Assembly: GCA_947489315.1 (NCBI GenBank)
Contig: CANLCX010000001.1
Span: 871,501 to 935,500 of the forward strand
Length of the DNA stretch: 64,000 nt
Origin: an uncultured Sphingomonadaceae bacterium
GTDB taxonomy: Bacteria; Pseudomonadota; Alphaproteobacteria; Sphingomonadales; Sphingomonadaceae
Direction of reading: 5' to 3'
Below, one piece after another: positions 5,021-62,395 of this stretch (position 1 is its first letter; each line of letters starts with the position of its first letter). Under the pieces are notes generated by a model. That model made no database searches and had not been told where the DNA came from. It was given only the letters and a program-made list of their open reading frames with translations. The position numbers and the translations under genes were made by a program.

Positions 5021-6686
5021 CCGCACGCGCGGAACTATCCTCTCTCAGCTGGTTCTGAATGGTTTCGCGCAAGCGGCGGCTATTGGCGGCATCGGCCTGG
5101 CATTAAAATCGCAATTTGATGCGATGCAAAATGCAGCCAATAGCAGTCTTACCACTCTGGTTTCCCCCGCGATCATCATGGCTGGACTGGCCATGATGAT
5201 CGCATCCCTGAAGTGGCGCGAGCGCATTGATATGGAGCGACTGGGTCAGGACTATGTGTTTGAAACACGCATGCTGATTTTCAGCCATATTAACGGCATG
5301 TCCGCGAACGGGATTGAAGAGCTTCGCAAAGGCGTCGTCATGCTGCGCTTTGTGAATGACCTCACTGCGCTGCGCCAGTGGATCAGCATGGGCATTGCCA
5401 GCGCTATTGTTGCAGCGATCATATTATTGGGTGCGTTGATTTTTCTAACAGTCATAAATCCGATGATTGGTCTGGTGTCATTTGCTGTCATGCTTGCAGG
5501 CGTCATGGCGATCCTGTTGATGGGCAAGCGGGTTGATCGAACCATTCGTGAAGCCAGACGGCGGCGCGGTAATATTGCCAGTAATATTGCCGAAAAGCTT
5601 GGTAACATGGTGATGATACAGGCCTTTGGCCAACGTCAGACGGAGCGTAAAAAACTGCGCCGTCAATCCAAGAGCTTGCAAAATGCGATGATCGAACGCG
5701 CATCCGCCACAGGGCTTGTTCGGGCGCTCGCCTATCTTGTGACCAGTATGACATTGGTCGCGGCCATGGGCATGGGTGCCTATGCGATCTACAATGGTGC
5801 TGCCACTATGGGAGAGATTGTCGCCGCTTTCGGCATCGTGTCTCTTGCGGCTCCGGCGTTAAACGGTTTCGGTCGTTTGTTTGAATATTGGAAAGATGCG
5901 ACGGTTGCGCGCGAAAAAATTGGTTCGATTTTTACAAAAGGACCAGCAATTTCGACCTCGACCAGCCGGGAACCTCTGCGCAAGCTGCGCGGGGAATTGC
6001 GCTTTGACAACATCAGTTCGGGCACCGCTATCGAGAATTTCAGCGCTCGCGCTGCCGCGGGATCTGTAATTGCAGTCAAGGGTCGCAGCGGTAGCGGAAA
6101 GACAACGTTGCTGCGATTGGCCCAGCGCCTGATCGATCCGGATGAAGGTGCCATATACTTGGACGATCGCAACATATTGTCGGTCCGGACCGGCGAGTTG
6201 CGGCGGGCGATTTCGATTGCCTCTTCCCTCATGCCGCTGATGCGGGGGACGATATGGTCCAATATTGCCTATGGATGTGCCAAAGCGTCCAATAGCGATA
6301 TTCAGGATGCGGCGCGGATTGCCGGGATCATGATCAACAATCCTGATGCGGCTCTGCATGGGGATCGCGTGGTTCACGAACTCGGCACCAATCTAAGCGC
6401 TGGTGAGCGGGCACGGGTCATTTTGGCCCGCGCTTTAGCCAGCAAGCCAAAAGTCCTGCTGCTCGATGAACCGGAGCAAAATCTTGATGAGCTTGGTATT
6501 GCCGCTTTGCGCCGGATCATCAAAACCTTTTCTGGCACCGTCATTATGGCCACGCATGATGCACAACTTCTGGCCATGGCTGATGACATCTGGACTCTTA
6601 GGGCCGGTCATCAGCCAGCCCTTTCTTTAATTGAAAATCACCACCACCAGGACCGCATTGGTCCTGTACGGTTCAGTAAATATTGA
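4995..6686 (+). CDS. ABC transporter, fused permease/ATP-binding protein (type I exporter-like)
   Basis: TM-rich N-terminus; Walker A GRSGSGKTTLLRL; LSAGERARVILARAL; LLLDEPEQNLDE. Confidence 0.88.
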   Translation: MSSLPQLFNRTRGTILSQLVLNGFAQAAAIGGIGLALKSQFDAMQNAANSSLTTLVSPAIIMAGLAMMIASLKWRERIDMERLGQDYVFETRMLIFSHINGMSANGIEELRKGVVMLRFVNDLTALRQWISMGIASAIVAAIILLGALIFLTVINPMIGLVSFAVMLAGVMAILLMGKRVDRTIREARRRRGNIASNIAEKLGNMVMIQAFGQRQTERKKLRRQSKSLQNAMIERASATGLVRALAYLVTSMTLVAAMGMGAYAIYNGAATMGEIVAAFGIVSLAAPALNGFGRLFEYWKDATVAREKIGSIFTKGPAISTSTSREPLRKLRGELRFDNISSGTAIENFSARAAAGSVIAVKGRSGSGKTTLLRLAQRLIDPDEGAIYLDDRNILSVRTGELRRAISIASSLMPLMRGTIWSNIAYGCAKASNSDIQDAARIAGIMINNPDAALHGDRVVHELGTNLSAGERARVILARALASKPKVLLLDEPEQNLDELGIAALRRIIKTFSGTVIMATHDAQLLAMADDIWTLRAGHQPALSLIENHHHQDRIGPVRFSKY

Positions 6687-6695
6687 GGATATAGA

Positions 6696-7574
6696 ATGAC
6701 TTATTCAGATAATCTCGCTTTCAAGGAAGACGAAACGCTTCATTTTGAAATGGAAAAACCCCTGCATGTCCGAGGGCGTATTGCATCAGCGGTTACCCAT
6801 GGCCCTAGCCGGCTGTCCTATTTCATTTATCGGCCAAAAAAGCCTAGGGCCAGAGAACAAGTCATATTTTCCATCCATGGCTATACTCGCAACGCGTTGC
6901 AGCACATCTTTGTCCTGCAGGAACTTGCCGAAGAAAAAGGCGTCACGATTGTAGTGCCGCATTTTACCAAGCAAGATTTCCGGCGCTATCAGCAGGTCTG
7001 CCCGCACGGTGATGGCGCTAGTCCGGACGCTGCCTTGATGGAATTGGTGGCAGAGTTGCAAGCTGTTGATGATCTCGATCTGTCGACGATACGGGCGGTT
7101 GGCTATTCCGGCGGTGGACAGTTTCTGCACCGGCTGAACATGTTGCGCCCTGATCTTGTTGATCGGATGGTCCTGTTCGCGCCGGGCTGGTACACCATGC
7201 CTGACAGGGCCTATCCCTATCCGTTGGGCCTTGGCGCATCGGAAATATTGGCAGACCGGTCACTGTCGCTCGAAGGATTTCGAAAAGCGGATGTCTTAGT
7301 ACTGGTGGGCGACAATGATGTCAGCCGCAATGGTTCGCTGAATCAGGACGAACAGATTGATCTGGCGCAAGGCCGGACCCGGGTGGCACGGGCGCAGAAC
7401 TGGACCCGGACAATGAACGCCAATCTGCCGGCCGACAACCAGATTAAATTGCAGCTTCTCAAAGGCCTGCGACATGGCTTCCGACGGAACTTTGAGACGA
7501 AAGGCTATGGTCGCCTCGTCTTTGATCATCTGCTGGCTGATCTGTTTAAACCATCAAACCTTCAGGAAAGTTAG
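6696..7574 (+). CDS. Alpha/beta hydrolase
   Basis: FSIHGYTRNALQH; nucleophile elbow AVGYSGGGQFLHRL; C-terminal GLRHGFRRNFE. Confidence 0.75.
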   Translation: MTYSDNLAFKEDETLHFEMEKPLHVRGRIASAVTHGPSRLSYFIYRPKKPRAREQVIFSIHGYTRNALQHIFVLQELAEEKGVTIVVPHFTKQDFRRYQQVCPHGDGASPDAALMELVAELQAVDDLDLSTIRAVGYSGGGQFLHRLNMLRPDLVDRMVLFAPGWYTMPDRAYPYPLGLGASEILADRSLSLEGFRKADVLVLVGDNDVSRNGSLNQDEQIDLAQGRTRVARAQNWTRTMNANLPADNQIKLQLLKGLRHGFRRNFETKGYGRLVFDHLLADLFKPSNLQES

Positions 7575-7578
7575 ATTT

Positions 7579-8742
7579 TTGGCAAAACATTTCTCGTTGT
7601 TGAGCGCCGGGCTGTTGCTCGGTGTTCCTGGCACTGCTCTGGCGCAGGATATCAGTGCTGGATCGGACGGTATCGTCGTGGAAACCGGTGACGCCCGTTT
7701 GACCTTGGGTGGGCGCTTCCACCTTGACGCCGTGGCATCCGATGATGATGTCACTGCAATCAGGGATGAAATTAATATACGACGTTTGCGCGTCGATGCG
7801 ACAGTCGATGTCGGAGATGATTGGACCGCCAAATTTGACGCTGATATTGGCGGCATTTCGACCGGCCTACGTAACGTCTGGCTGGCCTATAGAGGCTTTG
7901 ACAATGTCACTTTGCGCGCTGGAAACCTCACCACACCTTTTTTGGGTGAGCGACAGAAAAGCTCCAATAATCTAAAATTTTTGGAACGATCGCTCTCCGC
8001 TGCACTGGCTCCTGGTTTTCGTGCTGGCGGCGCGGTGACTTATAGCGGTGAGAATGTTGCGTTGACCGCTGCCTATGTCGAAAACCCTATTGATGCCGAT
8101 GATGACAGGCAACCGCGCGAAGACGGTAACAGCATTGTTGGTAAGATCGTTTGGGCGCCGATAAGAGAAAGAGAGCAAAGCCTGTTTGTGGCCGCGGCGA
8201 TCGATCGGCGCGATCTCAATCCAGGCGCGGAAACCCGTGTTCGATCCACGCCCGAATTTGGTTTGAGTTTCACGCGTCTGGTGGACACTGGCAATCTTGA
8301 TGACGTCGATAGCTATGTTAATATTGCCGCAGAGGCCGGATATGCCAAAGGACCATTTGTCATAACCGGCCAATATTTGCGCCGTTTCAACGATGCTCCA
8401 GCTTTGGACAATCCCCAATTTTCGGGTGGATCGATTGAGGCAGCTTACGTCATCACTGGCGAGAGACAACGATTTAGCTTGTCTTCCGGCAGTTTCGGGG
8501 CGGTCCGACCAACCGGGAAATTGGGCGCTTTGGAGATTGCTGCACGGGTTAGTTTTCTGGATTTGGAGGATGGACCAGTGACGGGCGGTAAAGAGAAAAA
8601 TTTCACCGCTGGCGTCAATTGGTATATTGGAAAGAATATTAAAGTCGCGTTGAACTATGTTCGTGCGGAGGCGGACCCCGGCCGTTTTGGCTTTTCCGAA
8701 TCCGTCAATGCTGTGGCCACCCGCCTGCAACTGGCCTTCTAG
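7579..8742 (+). CDS. OprO/OprP-like phosphate-selective porin family protein
   Basis: Signal peptide, RLTLGGRFHLDAVASDDD...NIRRLRVDATVDVGDDWTAKFDADI, C-terminal aromatic strand TRLQLAF; probable TTG start. Confidence 0.75.
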   Translation: MAKHFSLLSAGLLLGVPGTALAQDISAGSDGIVVETGDARLTLGGRFHLDAVASDDDVTAIRDEINIRRLRVDATVDVGDDWTAKFDADIGGISTGLRNVWLAYRGFDNVTLRAGNLTTPFLGERQKSSNNLKFLERSLSAALAPGFRAGGAVTYSGENVALTAAYVENPIDADDDRQPREDGNSIVGKIVWAPIREREQSLFVAAAIDRRDLNPGAETRVRSTPEFGLSFTRLVDTGNLDDVDSYVNIAAEAGYAKGPFVITGQYLRRFNDAPALDNPQFSGGSIEAAYVITGERQRFSLSSGSFGAVRPTGKLGALEIAARVSFLDLEDGPVTGGKEKNFTAGVNWYIGKNIKVALNYVRAEADPGRFGFSESVNAVATRLQLAF

Positions 8743-8761
8743 ATATGGCCAAGGAGATTAT

Positions 8762-10411
8762 ATGATCAGGTCGTCGAGTAAGAAAATCTGGCACATGATG
8801 TTCGGACCCAGCCCGCGCACCTTATCCTTTCGTACCCGGCTGTTCACGACATTGGGGGCGCTGCTGATATTGGCGATCTGCGCCAGCGTGGCCAATTTTT
8901 ATGGTACCACCCGGTCCAACCTGTTGTTCGAACGCAACCAGCTCGCCAATGATGTTGTTCACAGCTATAGCGAAGCCGCGATGCTGACCGAACGGTTAGT
9001 GAAAAAGATGAACGTGGCGGTCAATCAGCCACCGAACAGCTCCATTACCCCTATCACCGAAGTTAAGATGCAGATTCAGAATCAGCTTAATACCGCGCGT
9101 CAAAGCATCGCGAAAGAAGTCGAACTGGTCGGTAAAATCGAAGATGAGGCCGCAGAACTTGAAGAATTGGCGGCGTTGGAACGGTTGATCGGGCGAGCGA
9201 TCAACCAGTTTGACGAGGTGTTACTATTGCGGGATGCAGGGCAGGTTGAAATCGCACGCGAACGATTTCTTGCAGTGGTCTCAGAGCAGATTGAGGGTCA
9301 GTTTTCGGAATCGATCAATGCACTGCTCGCAGAAGAACGGTCCGAGATCGAAGAAGCGCAACGTAATATCCGATTTCTTGGTCGCCAGCTAACCGTCTTT
9401 GCGGGCGTGATTATTTTTCTGGCGCTATTGTTCATCGTACCGGCCGTGCTGCGCTTGTCTCATATTTTCAACCGTTCGATGACGGAACTGCAAGACGGCC
9501 TTGATCATTATGGACAGAATAAGTTTGACTACAGCATCCCGAAGTTACCGGCGCGCGAATTTAACTATCTGGGGCACCGGTTCAATCATATGGCAGAACA
9601 AATCGGTTCCGCACAGACAAGCCTGATGTCGGCCAATGCCGGGCTGGAAGAAACTGTGTCATCGCGGACGGAAGAGCTGGAAGAAGCAAACAAGGCGTTG
9701 CTAGAGAAAGATGAAGGCCGCAAAAGGCTGTTCGCGGATATCAGTCATGAACTGCGGACGCCGCTGACCGTGATCCGCGGAGAGGCGGAGATCAGCTTGC
9801 GCGGCAAAAAGAAAAATCCAGAAGAATATGAATCGAGTCTGAAACTGATCGCCGATCAGGCCATTCACACCGCGCGCCTGATCGATGATCTTTTGTTTGT
9901 CGCCCGCTCCCAGGCTGGCGAGCTGAAACTGGTCAAAAAGCCCCTCGACATCGCGGCGCTGGTTGCAGAGAAGCAAGCTGCTTTTGAAGCGTTGGCGACG
10001 AAGAAGAATATCCAGATCGTTGCCGAAAAGAATGTCTCGGATTTGATTGTTTTCGGTGATCGCGGTCGTTTGGGACAGGTTTTTGCGATCCTGTTTGATA
10101 ACGCAATCCGCTATGCGCCAGCGGACAGCAAAATATCCGTCCTTTTGAATAGCGCTCCAGGCGGTGTTGCCGTGACTGTCGATAATATTTCCGAAGCGGT
10201 TAGCGATGATGATCTGCGTCACATATTCAACCGCTTCTATCGCGGGGACAATGCCGGGCAACAGGATGACGGCACGGGACTCGGCCTTCCCGTCGCCAAA
10301 GCCATTGTCCAAGCCCATGACGGCACTATCGGGATCACTCGAAAAGAAGAGAACATCATTTCGGCGACGGTCATATTGGCCGCCGAACAACAGATGAGGA
10401 TCGTATCATGA
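8762..10411 (+). CDS. Sensor histidine kinase (HAMP, HisKA, HATPase_c)
   Basis: LFADISHELRTPLTVIRGEAE H-box; TGLGLPVAKAIVQAHDGTIG G-box. Confidence 0.92.
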   Translation: MIRSSSKKIWHMMFGPSPRTLSFRTRLFTTLGALLILAICASVANFYGTTRSNLLFERNQLANDVVHSYSEAAMLTERLVKKMNVAVNQPPNSSITPITEVKMQIQNQLNTARQSIAKEVELVGKIEDEAAELEELAALERLIGRAINQFDEVLLLRDAGQVEIARERFLAVVSEQIEGQFSESINALLAEERSEIEEAQRNIRFLGRQLTVFAGVIIFLALLFIVPAVLRLSHIFNRSMTELQDGLDHYGQNKFDYSIPKLPAREFNYLGHRFNHMAEQIGSAQTSLMSANAGLEETVSSRTEELEEANKALLEKDEGRKRLFADISHELRTPLTVIRGEAEISLRGKKKNPEEYESSLKLIADQAIHTARLIDDLLFVARSQAGELKLVKKPLDIAALVAEKQAAFEALATKKNIQIVAEKNVSDLIVFGDRGRLGQVFAILFDNAIRYAPADSKISVLLNSAPGGVAVTVDNISEAVSDDDLRHIFNRFYRGDNAGQQDDGTGLGLPVAKAIVQAHDGTIGITRKEENIISATVILAAEQQMRIVS

Positions 10412-58984: not shown

Positions 58985-59548
58985 TTAAAGTGCCCTTATC
59001 AGTCTCACCGCAACGCCAATCCATTCGGGGTCTTTAACAACCTGTTGCCGCGCACCGCTGCCCAGCGGTAAAACCTGTATCATGTCGCCTTCTCGGCCAA
59101 TCAGGCGACCAAATAAAAACCGCCCAGCAGGTCGCGGCACCAATATATCACGGTTGAGCGCGCCGCTATATTGGTCAGGGGTACGGCGGGATAGCCACAC
59201 GTCATCTCCGGTCCGGTAATCCCCGACGCTGCTCTTTACGCGGAGAGCGACCATGTCCGTTTCAATTGTCGGTTGGGAAATGCTCTCGGTCTTCTTGAGT
59301 GCGTGCGCGCCTTTATGATCGAGTATCGCAGCAACGGGCAACTCATCCTGATTAGGAAGGGCGAGCAATTCCGCGCTATCAACACCAAGGGCATCGGCGA
59401 TCCGATTGAGCCAATCCAGCGAAAGTGTGCGCATGCCGGTTTCCAAACGGCCAATGGTTTGGGCTGTGGTTGACGGAGCGCAACGTTTTGCGACATCATC
59501 TAACGTCAATCCCTTGGCCTTGCGAACATCTCTTATGCGGCTAATCAT
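58985..59548 (-). CDS. XRE family (Cro/CI HTH) transcriptional regulator
   Basis: MISRIRDVRKAKGLTLDDVAKRCAPSTTAQTIGRLETGMRTLSLDWLNRIADALGV. Confidence 0.88.
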   Translation of the reverse strand: MISRIRDVRKAKGLTLDDVAKRCAPSTTAQTIGRLETGMRTLSLDWLNRIADALGVDSAELLALPNQDELPVAAILDHKGAHALKKTESISQPTIETDMVALRVKSSVGDYRTGDDVWLSRRTPDQYSGALNRDILVPRPAGRFLFGRLIGREGDMIQVLPLGSGARQQVVKDPEWIGVAVRLIRAL

Positions 59549-59570
59549 GGTTACCTCCAACTTATAGTAT

Positions 59571-59587
59571 AAAACCTATATGGTTTT
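59571..59587. promoter_or_regulatory. Palindrome upstream of the XRE gene, candidate autoregulatory operator
   Basis: AAAACC-TATAT-GGTTTT. Confidence 0.45.
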
Positions 59588-59605
59588 TTCTTGGCACTAT
59601 TATAG

Positions 59606-59896
59606 ATGACGTACCCAAGCAAGAAAGATCGTGGACAGAAGTCACAGGAAAGTGTTGAAATTCTTGGCCCCGAGTCTGCTTTGGAGCAGGCTTCGAAGAT
59701 TCTGCGTGCCAAGATGGAACATCTTGATCCGACTGAACTAGGAGAATTAGATTGGGAAGAACTCACCGATTGGCACAAAGATTATTGGCGTTTTTGCGTA
59801 GAAGATTTACTTGAACGCAGTGATCTTATCAAATCCTGCTTGCGTGAGCTCTCCGACGACGATTGTGAAAATTGGAGTATCGTACAAAGCGAATAA
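59606..59896 (+). CDS. Hypothetical 96-aa acidic protein inside the IS1595 element
   Basis: Intact ORF beginning within the left TIR; protein-like composition. Confidence 0.4.
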   Translation: MTYPSKKDRGQKSQESVEILGPESALEQASKILRAKMEHLDPTELGELDWEELTDWHKDYWRFCVEDLLERSDLIKSCLRELSDDDCENWSIVQSE

Positions 59897-60664
59897 CTGA
59901 AGTTGAACTACCGCATATGGAGCGCTGTTTATTACTCGCGAGAATACCACTGATCGGTGTAGCGCAGAAATTACCTTGCCCTTCTCAAATTCAATTTCTG
60001 CTTCAAGCGTTCCACCGACAAATGAAGTCCAGTCTGAACCAGTTTCGCAGATTATCTCTTTGATTTTTTGAGAGTTGAAACTGTCCAATCCAACAGCAGA
60101 AATTGTGAGGCAGAAAGCTATTTTAGCCAAAAGCTTTGCTTGATAATCAACAGCGATTTGGTGATAAAATTTACTCGCCTTGTTTGGTATATTTATTTTC
60201 AATTTTGATGGTTTTTCAAAAACCTTAAACCATATGCTGCCTTGTTTTTGACGTAATAGCAGTGGATTCTGCAAGATTTTTGGAGCTTGGAAATCGGCCA
60301 ATACGAGGAGCCCTGGATGATCAGAAATCGGTACTAAAAACTCATTTTGAGGCTGCCCCATTTTTCCGAAATTAGCCACTGCCTTAAAATGGGTTGGCGG
60401 TTGTTTCATGCGCAGACCCAAATTTAACCGAACATGCTGAAACATCTTTCTAGCAGCGTATAGCTCTATTTTTTTTGTAACATCCTCGTGCTTCCTGCAA
60501 CTAGCTTTCGGTAAAGTGGCATTTCCGCCCAATGAACGAGGGACAATATGCTCGCGGCCCAATTTAACATTCGGTTCGTGTATGTCGCAATATATACACC
60601 TTCCGATAGCTGCGTTAGCTTTTGACTGCTTAATCTGAATATAGCTTCTATTTCCTAGATTCAT
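59807..60664 (-). CDS. HNH endonuclease, IS passenger
   Basis: CIYCDIHEPNVKLGREHIVPRSLGGNATLPKASCRKHEDVTKKIE. Confidence 0.82.
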   Translation of the reverse strand: MNLGNRSYIQIKQSKANAAIGRCIYCDIHEPNVKLGREHIVPRSLGGNATLPKASCRKHEDVTKKIELYAARKMFQHVRLNLGLRMKQPPTHFKAVANFGKMGQPQNEFLVPISDHPGLLVLADFQAPKILQNPLLLRQKQGSIWFKVFEKPSKLKINIPNKASKFYHQIAVDYQAKLLAKIAFCLTISAVGLDSFNSQKIKEIICETGSDWTSFVGGTLEAEIEFEKGKVISALHRSVVFSRVINSAPYAVVQLQLFALYDTPIFTIVVGELTQAGFDKITAFK

Positions 60665-60806
60665 GCCGCTCCTGTTGGATTAGAACATCTAAAGCTGCGT
60701 CCGCTTCTGTGGGGTTTAGTTCTCCAGCGGCGATCATGTCTTGAACGGCTTTTCTGAACCTTTCTGACTGTTCTTTCTGCGTTTCTTCTTTTTTCTTTTT
60801 CGGCAT
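60648..60806 (-). CDS. Small charged protein (52 aa) between transposase and HNH gene
   Basis: MPKKKKEETQKEQSERFRKAVQDMIAAGELNPTEADAALDVLIQQERHESRK*; overlaps the HNH start; 2 nt after the transposase stop. Confidence 0.6.
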   Translation of the reverse strand: MPKKKKEETQKEQSERFRKAVQDMIAAGELNPTEADAALDVLIQQERHESRK

Positions 60807-60808
60807 CA

Positions 60809-61738
60809 CTAGTCTCGGTGAGATTGTTGGTATGTCAAGCGCTTGCCAATAACGCCCATTAGCATTTCATCAGCACGCTCTATATCACTAACCCCTTTTG
60901 CCACGCGATTGCTATAGCGGAAGTCATATTCAGCTAGATACCGGTGCAAATGCTTCTCACTGCAATGCTGGTAGATACCGCGCATACCGCGCTTAAAGAT
61001 GCTGAAAAAACCTTCAATATGATTGGTGGTGACACCAGTTTTCGAAACATATTCGCCAGCGGCATGGGTAACGCTCTGATGACTCAGAAATTCACGCCCT
61101 ACAGCGCGATAAGCACGAGCTTCATCAGTAACCAAGTGGGAGTCTTTTGCTACGTTGTCGCGTACGATTTGAGCGATTTGGCCGGGTTCCATGGTAGGAG
61201 TATGGATTGAACGAGTACGGCCAGTTTTCTTGTCGAGCAAGCTAACAACCCGCATCTTGTGACCAGCGCCCCGCCGTTTCTTCATGTAACGCATTTCAGG
61301 CTTGTTTCCGATGTAAGTTTCATCTGTCTGTACTTCGCCGCCACCACCGCCAAACATTTCCATGTTGCTATCACGCATAGCCTCACGGATGCGATGAGAC
61401 ATGAACCAAGCAGTTTTAAGGGTAACACCAAGGATGCGATGAAGCTGGTTGCTGCTTATGCCCTTCTTGCTGCCAGCAATAAGATACATGGCCTGCAACC
61501 AGACATTCATGCGAACGTGACTGGCTTCAAAGATGGTTCCAATCTTGACGGTAAAGGGCTTACGGCACTCATAGCACTTGTAAGTGCCAATGCGGGTCGA
61601 TTTGCCACCCATTTTACCTATACGGTCAAGTCCGCCGCAACGCGGGCAAACCGCACCATGGGGCCAAAGACGCTCTTCAACGTAGGTGTAGGCTGCTTCT
61701 TCATCGTGAAAGTGTTTTGCTGAAAGGCCGGATGCCAT
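60809..61738 (-). CDS. IS1595 family transposase
   Basis: CPRCGGLDRIGKMGGKSTRIGTYKCYECRKPFTVKIGTIFEASHVRMNVWLQAMYLIAGSKKGISSNQLHRILGVTLKTAWFMSHRIREAM; VQTDETYIGNK; TNHIEGFFSIFKRG. Confidence 0.95.
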   Translation of the reverse strand: MASGLSAKHFHDEEAAYTYVEERLWPHGAVCPRCGGLDRIGKMGGKSTRIGTYKCYECRKPFTVKIGTIFEASHVRMNVWLQAMYLIAGSKKGISSNQLHRILGVTLKTAWFMSHRIREAMRDSNMEMFGGGGGEVQTDETYIGNKPEMRYMKKRRGAGHKMRVVSLLDKKTGRTRSIHTPTMEPGQIAQIVRDNVAKDSHLVTDEARAYRAVGREFLSHQSVTHAAGEYVSKTGVTTNHIEGFFSIFKRGMRGIYQHCSEKHLHRYLAEYDFRYSNRVAKGVSDIERADEMLMGVIGKRLTYQQSHRD

Positions 61739-61867
61739 CGTTTGTCTCCTAATTGGTACAAACTAGGGCTTTTCCGTGGGTACGTCAAGTATAATATCGC
61801 CTTTTTCTTTCCTACATATTTGCCATAATGGCAAGAGAGATTCGAATCATTTGAAACGGAGCTCTAT

Positions 61868-62395
61868 ATGTCCTCAACCGGAAAAGACAAATTTGAAGAC
61901 CCACGCCTGTTGGCCGAGCGACCACTGCCGCAAGATGGCAGGGTTCGCGTAAAAGCCCGGACGAAAAAACGCCTAGCGCGTAGTGTGACAGTGAACCTGT
62001 CGGAGTCACCGTTAGGCTGGCTCCATGCGCGCGGGCATTTGACGGATCGCCAGCTCGATAGTGGAGAGAAATTGCGCGCCGATTGGGAGCGCGCCAATCT
62101 CGCTCCCAGCGTAACCATGAGTTGGAACATCACGCCGCCGAGCGGTGGTCGGCGCGGCGCTCCTGATGGGCTCGATCCGACGGAAGCGCAGATTGCTGCC
62201 AAGCAGCGTTTCGACAATGCTATAGCCTATCTCGGTAGGGACCTATCCGACATTGCTTGGAGAATAATCTGCGCAGGTGAGGGAGTTCCAGCTGCGGAAA
62301 AAAATCTTGGCTGGCCCGCGCGATCGGGAAAATTGGTGCTGAAAATTGCTCTGGATCGGCTTGGTGATTTCTATCGGCTTCCGGGAGAAGCCTAG
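61868..62395 (+). CDS. DUF6456 domain-containing protein
   Basis: SPLGWLHARGHLTDRQLDSGEKLRADWERANLAPSVTMSW; QRFDNAIAYLGRDLSDIAWRIICAGEGVPAAEKNLGWPARSGKLVLKIALDRLGDFY. Confidence 0.88.
   Translation: MSSTGKDKFEDPRLLAERPLPQDGRVRVKARTKKRLARSVTVNLSESPLGWLHARGHLTDRQLDSGEKLRADWERANLAPSVTMSWNITPPSGGRRGAPDGLDPTEAQIAAKQRFDNAIAYLGRDLSDIAWRIICAGEGVPAAEKNLGWPARSGKLVLKIALDRLGDFYRLPGEA

Follow-up and report, generated by a model that had tools for sequence, protein, structure and literature searches.

The window examined here, a 64,000-nucleotide stretch of a contig from an uncultured Sphingomonadaceae bacterium, contains what an initial annotation described as a complete IS1595-family insertion sequence (IS) with an HNH endonuclease gene as cargo. 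The question raised by this locus is why a transposon of this kind carries such a gene: by accident, as a partner in its own maintenance, or because carrying genes is what the element does.

The element and its ends

The element spans positions 59593-61801 (2,209 bp), and the ends, octamers and four open reading frames (ORFs) originally reported were all located exactly to the base. The terminal inverted repeats, 30 nt each and 80% complementary, lie at 59593-59622 (the far end; forward strand, GGCACTATTATAGATGACGTACCCA...) and at 61772-61801 (the transposase side; reverse strand, GGCGATATTATACTTGACGTACCCA...), and both start with GGC, in keeping with the GG start of IS1595-family ends. The octamer claimed to lie directly outside both ends was confirmed by reading the letters: TTTTTCTT is found at 59585-59592 and again at 61802-61809, an exact 8-bp target duplication of the kind expected for the family. 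By chance, this octamer would occur at any given position with a probability of ~2.5e-5.

The transposase gene (60809-61738, reverse strand) is intact and encodes 309 aa, with its conserved columns visible in alignment A1. The protein matches PF12762 (DDE_Tnp_IS1595; 120 bits, E=1e-34, cut-off 27), PF12760 (the N-terminal zinc ribbon; 41.3 bits, E=1.5e-10, cut-off 25.4) and NF033547 (192.5 bits, E=8.5e-57, cut-off 75). Together with the matched repeats and the exact duplication, these family models bear out the description of a complete IS1595-family element, which has the DDE_Tnp_IS1595 domain, zinc ribbon, GG-starting ends and 8-bp duplication that characterize the family. The zinc ribbon is a trait of all IS1595-family groups (ISPna2, ISH4, IS1595, ISSod11, ISNwi and ISNha5) other than IS1016, and members of the family usually, but not absolutely, have a single transposase gene (PMC8101967, after Siguier et al. 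2009). In this last respect the window element and all 53 of the relatives described below are unlike the usual family member, as all carry cargo; since the cargo-bearing tISCpe8 is counted in the IS1595 family (PMC5704250), the additional genes do not exclude membership.

Between the transposase gene and the far end lie a small companion ORF (60648-60809, reverse strand), the gene for a 285-aa HNH-family cargo protein (59807-60664, reverse strand) and a putative 96-aa ORF (59606-59896, forward strand). The small companion ORF encodes 53 aa from a GTG, or 52 aa from an ATG at 60806, and overlaps the transposase stop. A conserved protein of ~52 aa with the pattern MPKKK..EQSERF..LIDAGELNPTEAD is shared by the window element and most of its close relatives, and profile matches, a few of them weak, follow the transposase in 34 of 54 elements. 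It had no match above cut-off in Pfam or NCBIfam, and is possibly a transposition accessory or regulatory protein.

The two ends differ in one further respect. TTGACG at 61783-61788, within the transposase-side repeat, resembles a -35 box facing the transposase, and an inward TTGAC is present in 46 of 54 transposase-side ends versus 2 of 54 far ends. This asymmetry is consistent with one end containing a promoter for the transposase. A promoter and terminator scan of the element gave no excess over shuffled sequences, so the promoter role is one that we infer from the box.

The insertion site

The element lies between divergent genes, one for an XRE-type regulator (58985-59560, reverse strand) and one encoding a DUF6456 protein (61868-62395, forward strand). 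The two flanks were joined with one copy of the octamer and the product was searched against 33 genomes of the genus. The joined flanks matched in all 33, and most of the alignments cross the joint. Eight sister species were aligned at the joint itself: four read GGTTTTTTCTT followed across the joint by TCCTAC, with a single, uninterrupted octamer, three have a one-base variant of the octamer, and one (L140) has a 2-base alignment gap. This is the uninterrupted, pre-insertion site that had been anticipated in relatives, found here by sequence comparison. The element is absent from all eight species, which most simply places the insertion after the split from them.

The intact ends had been taken to suggest recent or live transposition. 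The empty sites and the intact genes do place the insertion within the history of the genus, but 'live' finds no support: the genome holds one copy and only two repeat sites, and neither another IS1595 transposase, nor full or non-autonomous copies, nor further copies of the ends were found in it.

Related elements

Relatives of the transposase were drawn from 401 genomes of the order and 80 named genome contigs. They occur mainly in Sphingomonadaceae, and also in Rhodobacter, Caulobacter, Bradyrhizobium, Methylobacterium and some Betaproteobacteria. Around these transposases, 53 other elements, mostly alphaproteobacterial, were found to have the same end core (near GGCGATATTATACTTGACGTACCCA), which is also common to their far ends, making 54 distinct elements with that of the window. 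The 8-bp duplication is exact in 45 of the 54 (44 of 53 when the window element is set aside); among the others, two match at 7 of 8 bases, three match at 6 of 8, and four have no duplication. When left and right flanks from different elements were paired at random, 0.5% gave exact octamer matches, and the recurrence of the same ends around 53 other transposase loci, with 44 exact duplications, is therefore more than chance. The possibility that no related element has these ends, raised at the outset as a reason for doubting the annotation, is clearly contradicted. The duplicated octamers have a G+C content of 22%, and the target sites are thus A+T-rich.

The 54 elements range from 1,831 to 4,902 bp in size, and in every complete one (54/54) the transposase is followed by cargo; the branch yielded no bare IS. 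The view that IS1595-family elements have occasional passenger genes is therefore correct as to the presence of cargo, but within this branch the cargo is not occasional. Because the elements were picked by similarity to the window transposase, with those that have divergent ends or lie on cut contigs left unscored, the universality of cargo is a statement about this branch. A second finder, which relies on no prior end sequence and was applied to 172 loci (viral contigs among them), returned 53 elements with exact duplications, the smallest being 1,914 bp. A similar search did pick up a bare element, of 832 bp, at a distant IS1595 transposase (L275), which shows that such elements are within its reach; the set of PF12762 loci of the class, most of which are too short to hold both ends, served to establish this point only.

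Transposases of this branch are also frequent in IMG/VR viral contigs (L166-L245), several of which hold complete, cargo-bearing elements with exact duplications. Transposons of this branch therefore also sit in phage or prophage DNA.

Exchangeable cargo

Close pairs of elements, such as L044/L079 and L041/L070, can be aligned over the first ~1.1 kb (end, transposase and small ORF) and over the last 25-58 bp; the DNA in between does not align. As the relatives keep the ends and the transposase and differ in the genes in the middle, the element resembles a small vehicle for cargo that can be exchanged. Cargo class does not follow the transposase tree (33 elements, quick tree): it takes 19 changes, versus a mean of 18.8 after shuffling.

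L089 and L126 are candidates for cassette exchange in place: they occupy an orthologous insertion site in different lineages, with homologous flanks on both sides and the same octamer (TAGGATTT), and their transposases are 94.5% identical, but the cargo is unrelated. L092 has the right flank in common with these two and holds yet another, barely related cargo. The site is most simply read as one of exchange in place, and may alternatively record repeated insertion. The L126 element (5939-10091) is itself split by ORFs with integrase-core features, probably those of an IS3-type IS, and both its transposase and its RelA/SpoT-like cargo are interrupted.

The nature of the cargo was surveyed in 76 cargo proteins, each of at least 125 aa. 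Most had no informative match. The families represented more than once were DUF3800 (13), RelA_SpoT (4), GmrSD_N (3), HNH (3), HNH_5 (3), SocA_Panacea (2), PIN (2) and HEPN (2), and single matches were to Abi_2, a DNA methylase, DUF5343, DUF4145, a trypsin-like protein and an SMC-like protein. DUF3800 has a predicted RNase H fold and is associated with some Cas12 systems (PMC10910872). PADLOC candidates were also found, among them PDC-S33, matched by a RelA/SpoT protein at E=1e-123, and PDC-S46, matched at E=5e-255 by a protein of 732 aa. When 76 genes flanking the elements were scanned in this way, they gave housekeeping-type families; none of DUF3800, RelA_SpoT, GmrSD, HNH, PIN, HEPN, SocA_Panacea, Abi_2 or the PADLOC candidates had two or more members among the 25 flanking-gene families listed, a tally in which single matches could be hidden. 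By these comparisons the cargo of the branch appears universal within the sample and exchangeable, and it leans to nucleases, toxins and phage-defence candidates.

In one cargo protein of 508 aa (L131:7122-8648), a DNA methylase domain (N6_N4_Mtase) is fused to an HNH domain, an arrangement resembling that of restriction-modification enzymes made of a single chain.

A probable carrier of gene cassettes

In the reading that we regard as highly probable, the transposase moves the element, which serves as a carrier for an exchangeable cassette of one or two genes; in this case the cassette encodes an HNH nuclease, probably a defensive or toxic one. The transposase would recognize two ~25-bp ends that start with GG and, by a presumed catalysis, insert the element into an A+T-rich octamer that is then duplicated; the ends, the duplication and the empty sites are what is seen of this step. 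The backbone comprises the transposase-side end, the transposase and the ~52-aa ORF (in most close relatives), together with the terminal 25-58 bp of the far end. Comparison of the elements indicates that the cassette between these arms is swapped among them, probably through homologous recombination in the conserved arms on either side, or through capture as the element transposes. As the cassette genes lean to nucleases, toxins and phage-defence candidates, the element probably persists through a benefit such as defence or addiction.

A bolder reading, which we put forward tentatively, is that this branch of minimal DDE transposons specializes in transporting defence systems of a single gene each, the cassettes being exchanged in situ between a pair of short conserved arms. 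The HNH gene and its convergent small ORF would then constitute an undescribed defence module, and the unclassified cassettes would be further new defence genes.

Cargo-bearing IS1595 elements are already known, under the name 'transporter IS'. MTnSag1 and tISCpe8 belong to the IS1595 family and carry lincomycin resistance (PMC5704250 and its references), and copy-out transposition via a circular intermediate is reported for MTnSag1. The elements described here resemble these two in their IS1595-family transposase, 25-bp inverted repeats, 8-bp duplications and cargo between the ends. MTnSag1 and tISCpe8 are, however, mobilizable elements of Streptococcus and Clostridium that carry antibiotic resistance, whereas those of this branch are chromosomal, mostly alphaproteobacterial, and carry nuclease, toxin and defence-like cassettes. 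No conjugation functions were seen in the elements here.

Tn7-like elements are larger, with multiple core genes for transposition; the elements of this branch differ in having one transposase, usually one or two cargo genes and a total length of 1.8-4.9 kb. They are like Tn7-like transposons in that the cargo is decoupled from the transposition core and is rich in defence and toxin-antitoxin families (PMC8649781). PIN, RelA/SpoT, HEPN and AbiF are common to both, and PMC8649781 counts them among the defence or toxin-antitoxin cargo that Tn7-like elements carry.

What appears to be new here is a clade in which cargo is universal, exchangeable and defence-leaning. No account of such universal, exchangeable cargo in a clade was found in the open literature searched, a scope outside which lie ISfinder and the founding 2009 paper (Siguier et al.), where part of it may already be described. 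With their small size, base-exact ends and usual content of one or two cargo genes, the elements offer, in the DNA between their ends, a set of precisely bounded candidates for defence or toxin genes. They also open cassette exchange to direct testing in a transposon of very small size.

The HNH gene and its neighbor

The HNH protein passes PF14279 (HNH_5) narrowly, with 28.3 bits versus a cut-off of 27.5. Like HNH_5 nuclease proteins, it has an intact CxxC...EH..P...C core, which is conserved in its relatives (C23, C26, E38, H39, P42 and C56 are invariant in the alignment). It is unlike them in the narrowness of the match and in its C-terminal half, which is conserved in relatives and has no recognized fold or family. 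A structure model of moderate confidence (pLDDT 71) gave nothing significant in a fold comparison with the PDB, and no PADLOC defence model matched the protein. An RNA-guided (IscB/Cas9-like) nuclease was considered and rejected, as the similarity is confined to the HNH core. This putative nuclease is probably a DNA-cutting defence or toxin protein.

Relatives of the HNH protein are rare, occurring in 4 further genomes of the 401 in the order and 3 further of 386 in a class sample, and are also found on plasmids and in viral contigs. Of 19 loci with such relatives, an IS1595 transposase is nearby only at L042 and, in degenerate form, at L154, where no matching ends were found that would make it a third HNH-bearing element. 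L042 is the only other intact element found with HNH cargo of this kind (26% identity over the full alignment). The initial annotation singled out an HNH nuclease as unusual cargo; the HNH gene is indeed cargo, but it is one of many cargo types, and L042 is its nearest intact counterpart. On a plasmid of Paraburkholderia sp. FT54 (L152), the setting of an HNH relative is island-like, with genes for a DUF262 protein and a PDDEXK nuclease close by.

The 96-aa ORF starts inside the far repeat, which holds its ATG, and is convergent with the HNH gene, overlapping its end by 90 bp. The two could form a toxin-antitoxin-like or nuclease-inhibitor pair that stabilizes the element by addiction, an explanation that we consider somewhat unlikely. 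It draws on the rarity of this arrangement: an ATG lies inside the far repeat in only 3 of 54 elements, two of which are the HNH-bearing elements, those of the window and L042. The layout in L042 is the same, with a convergent small ORF that starts in the far repeat and overlaps the HNH end by about 90 bp, and the two small proteins have weak similarity beyond the repeat-encoded residues (5 of 5000 shuffles). Toxin-antitoxin-like cargo is also present in other elements of the branch. However, the similarity is marginal by phmmer (E=4) and so suggestive only, searches of 349 other family genomes and of viral contigs gave no homolog of the 96-aa ORF, and no ribosome-binding site is evident before its ATG. 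As a putative gene, the ORF is possibly a cargo partner of the HNH gene.

It is unlikely that the element is an ordinary IS that trapped a neighboring gene by accident, with the HNH gene a neutral passenger of no role for element or host. The G+C content of the HNH gene (41%) is below that of the transposase (50%) and the flanking genes (55-57%), as in a recently acquired gene, and the single copy of the element and the lack of a matching defence model also speak for this reading. A neutral passenger is nevertheless hard to reconcile with cargo in all 54 complete elements of the branch, with a lean to defence and toxin families that the flanking genes do not have, and with an HNH reading frame and core residues that are intact.

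HNH domains are common in homing nucleases and this HNH gene is carried in the same element as the transposase, but a homing-type nuclease that aids spread or retention at the site is very improbable, as nearly all related elements are without an HNH gene and still show exact duplications, an IS1595 transposase is near only two of the 19 HNH-relative loci, and the octamer duplication at the insertion is that of DDE transposition.
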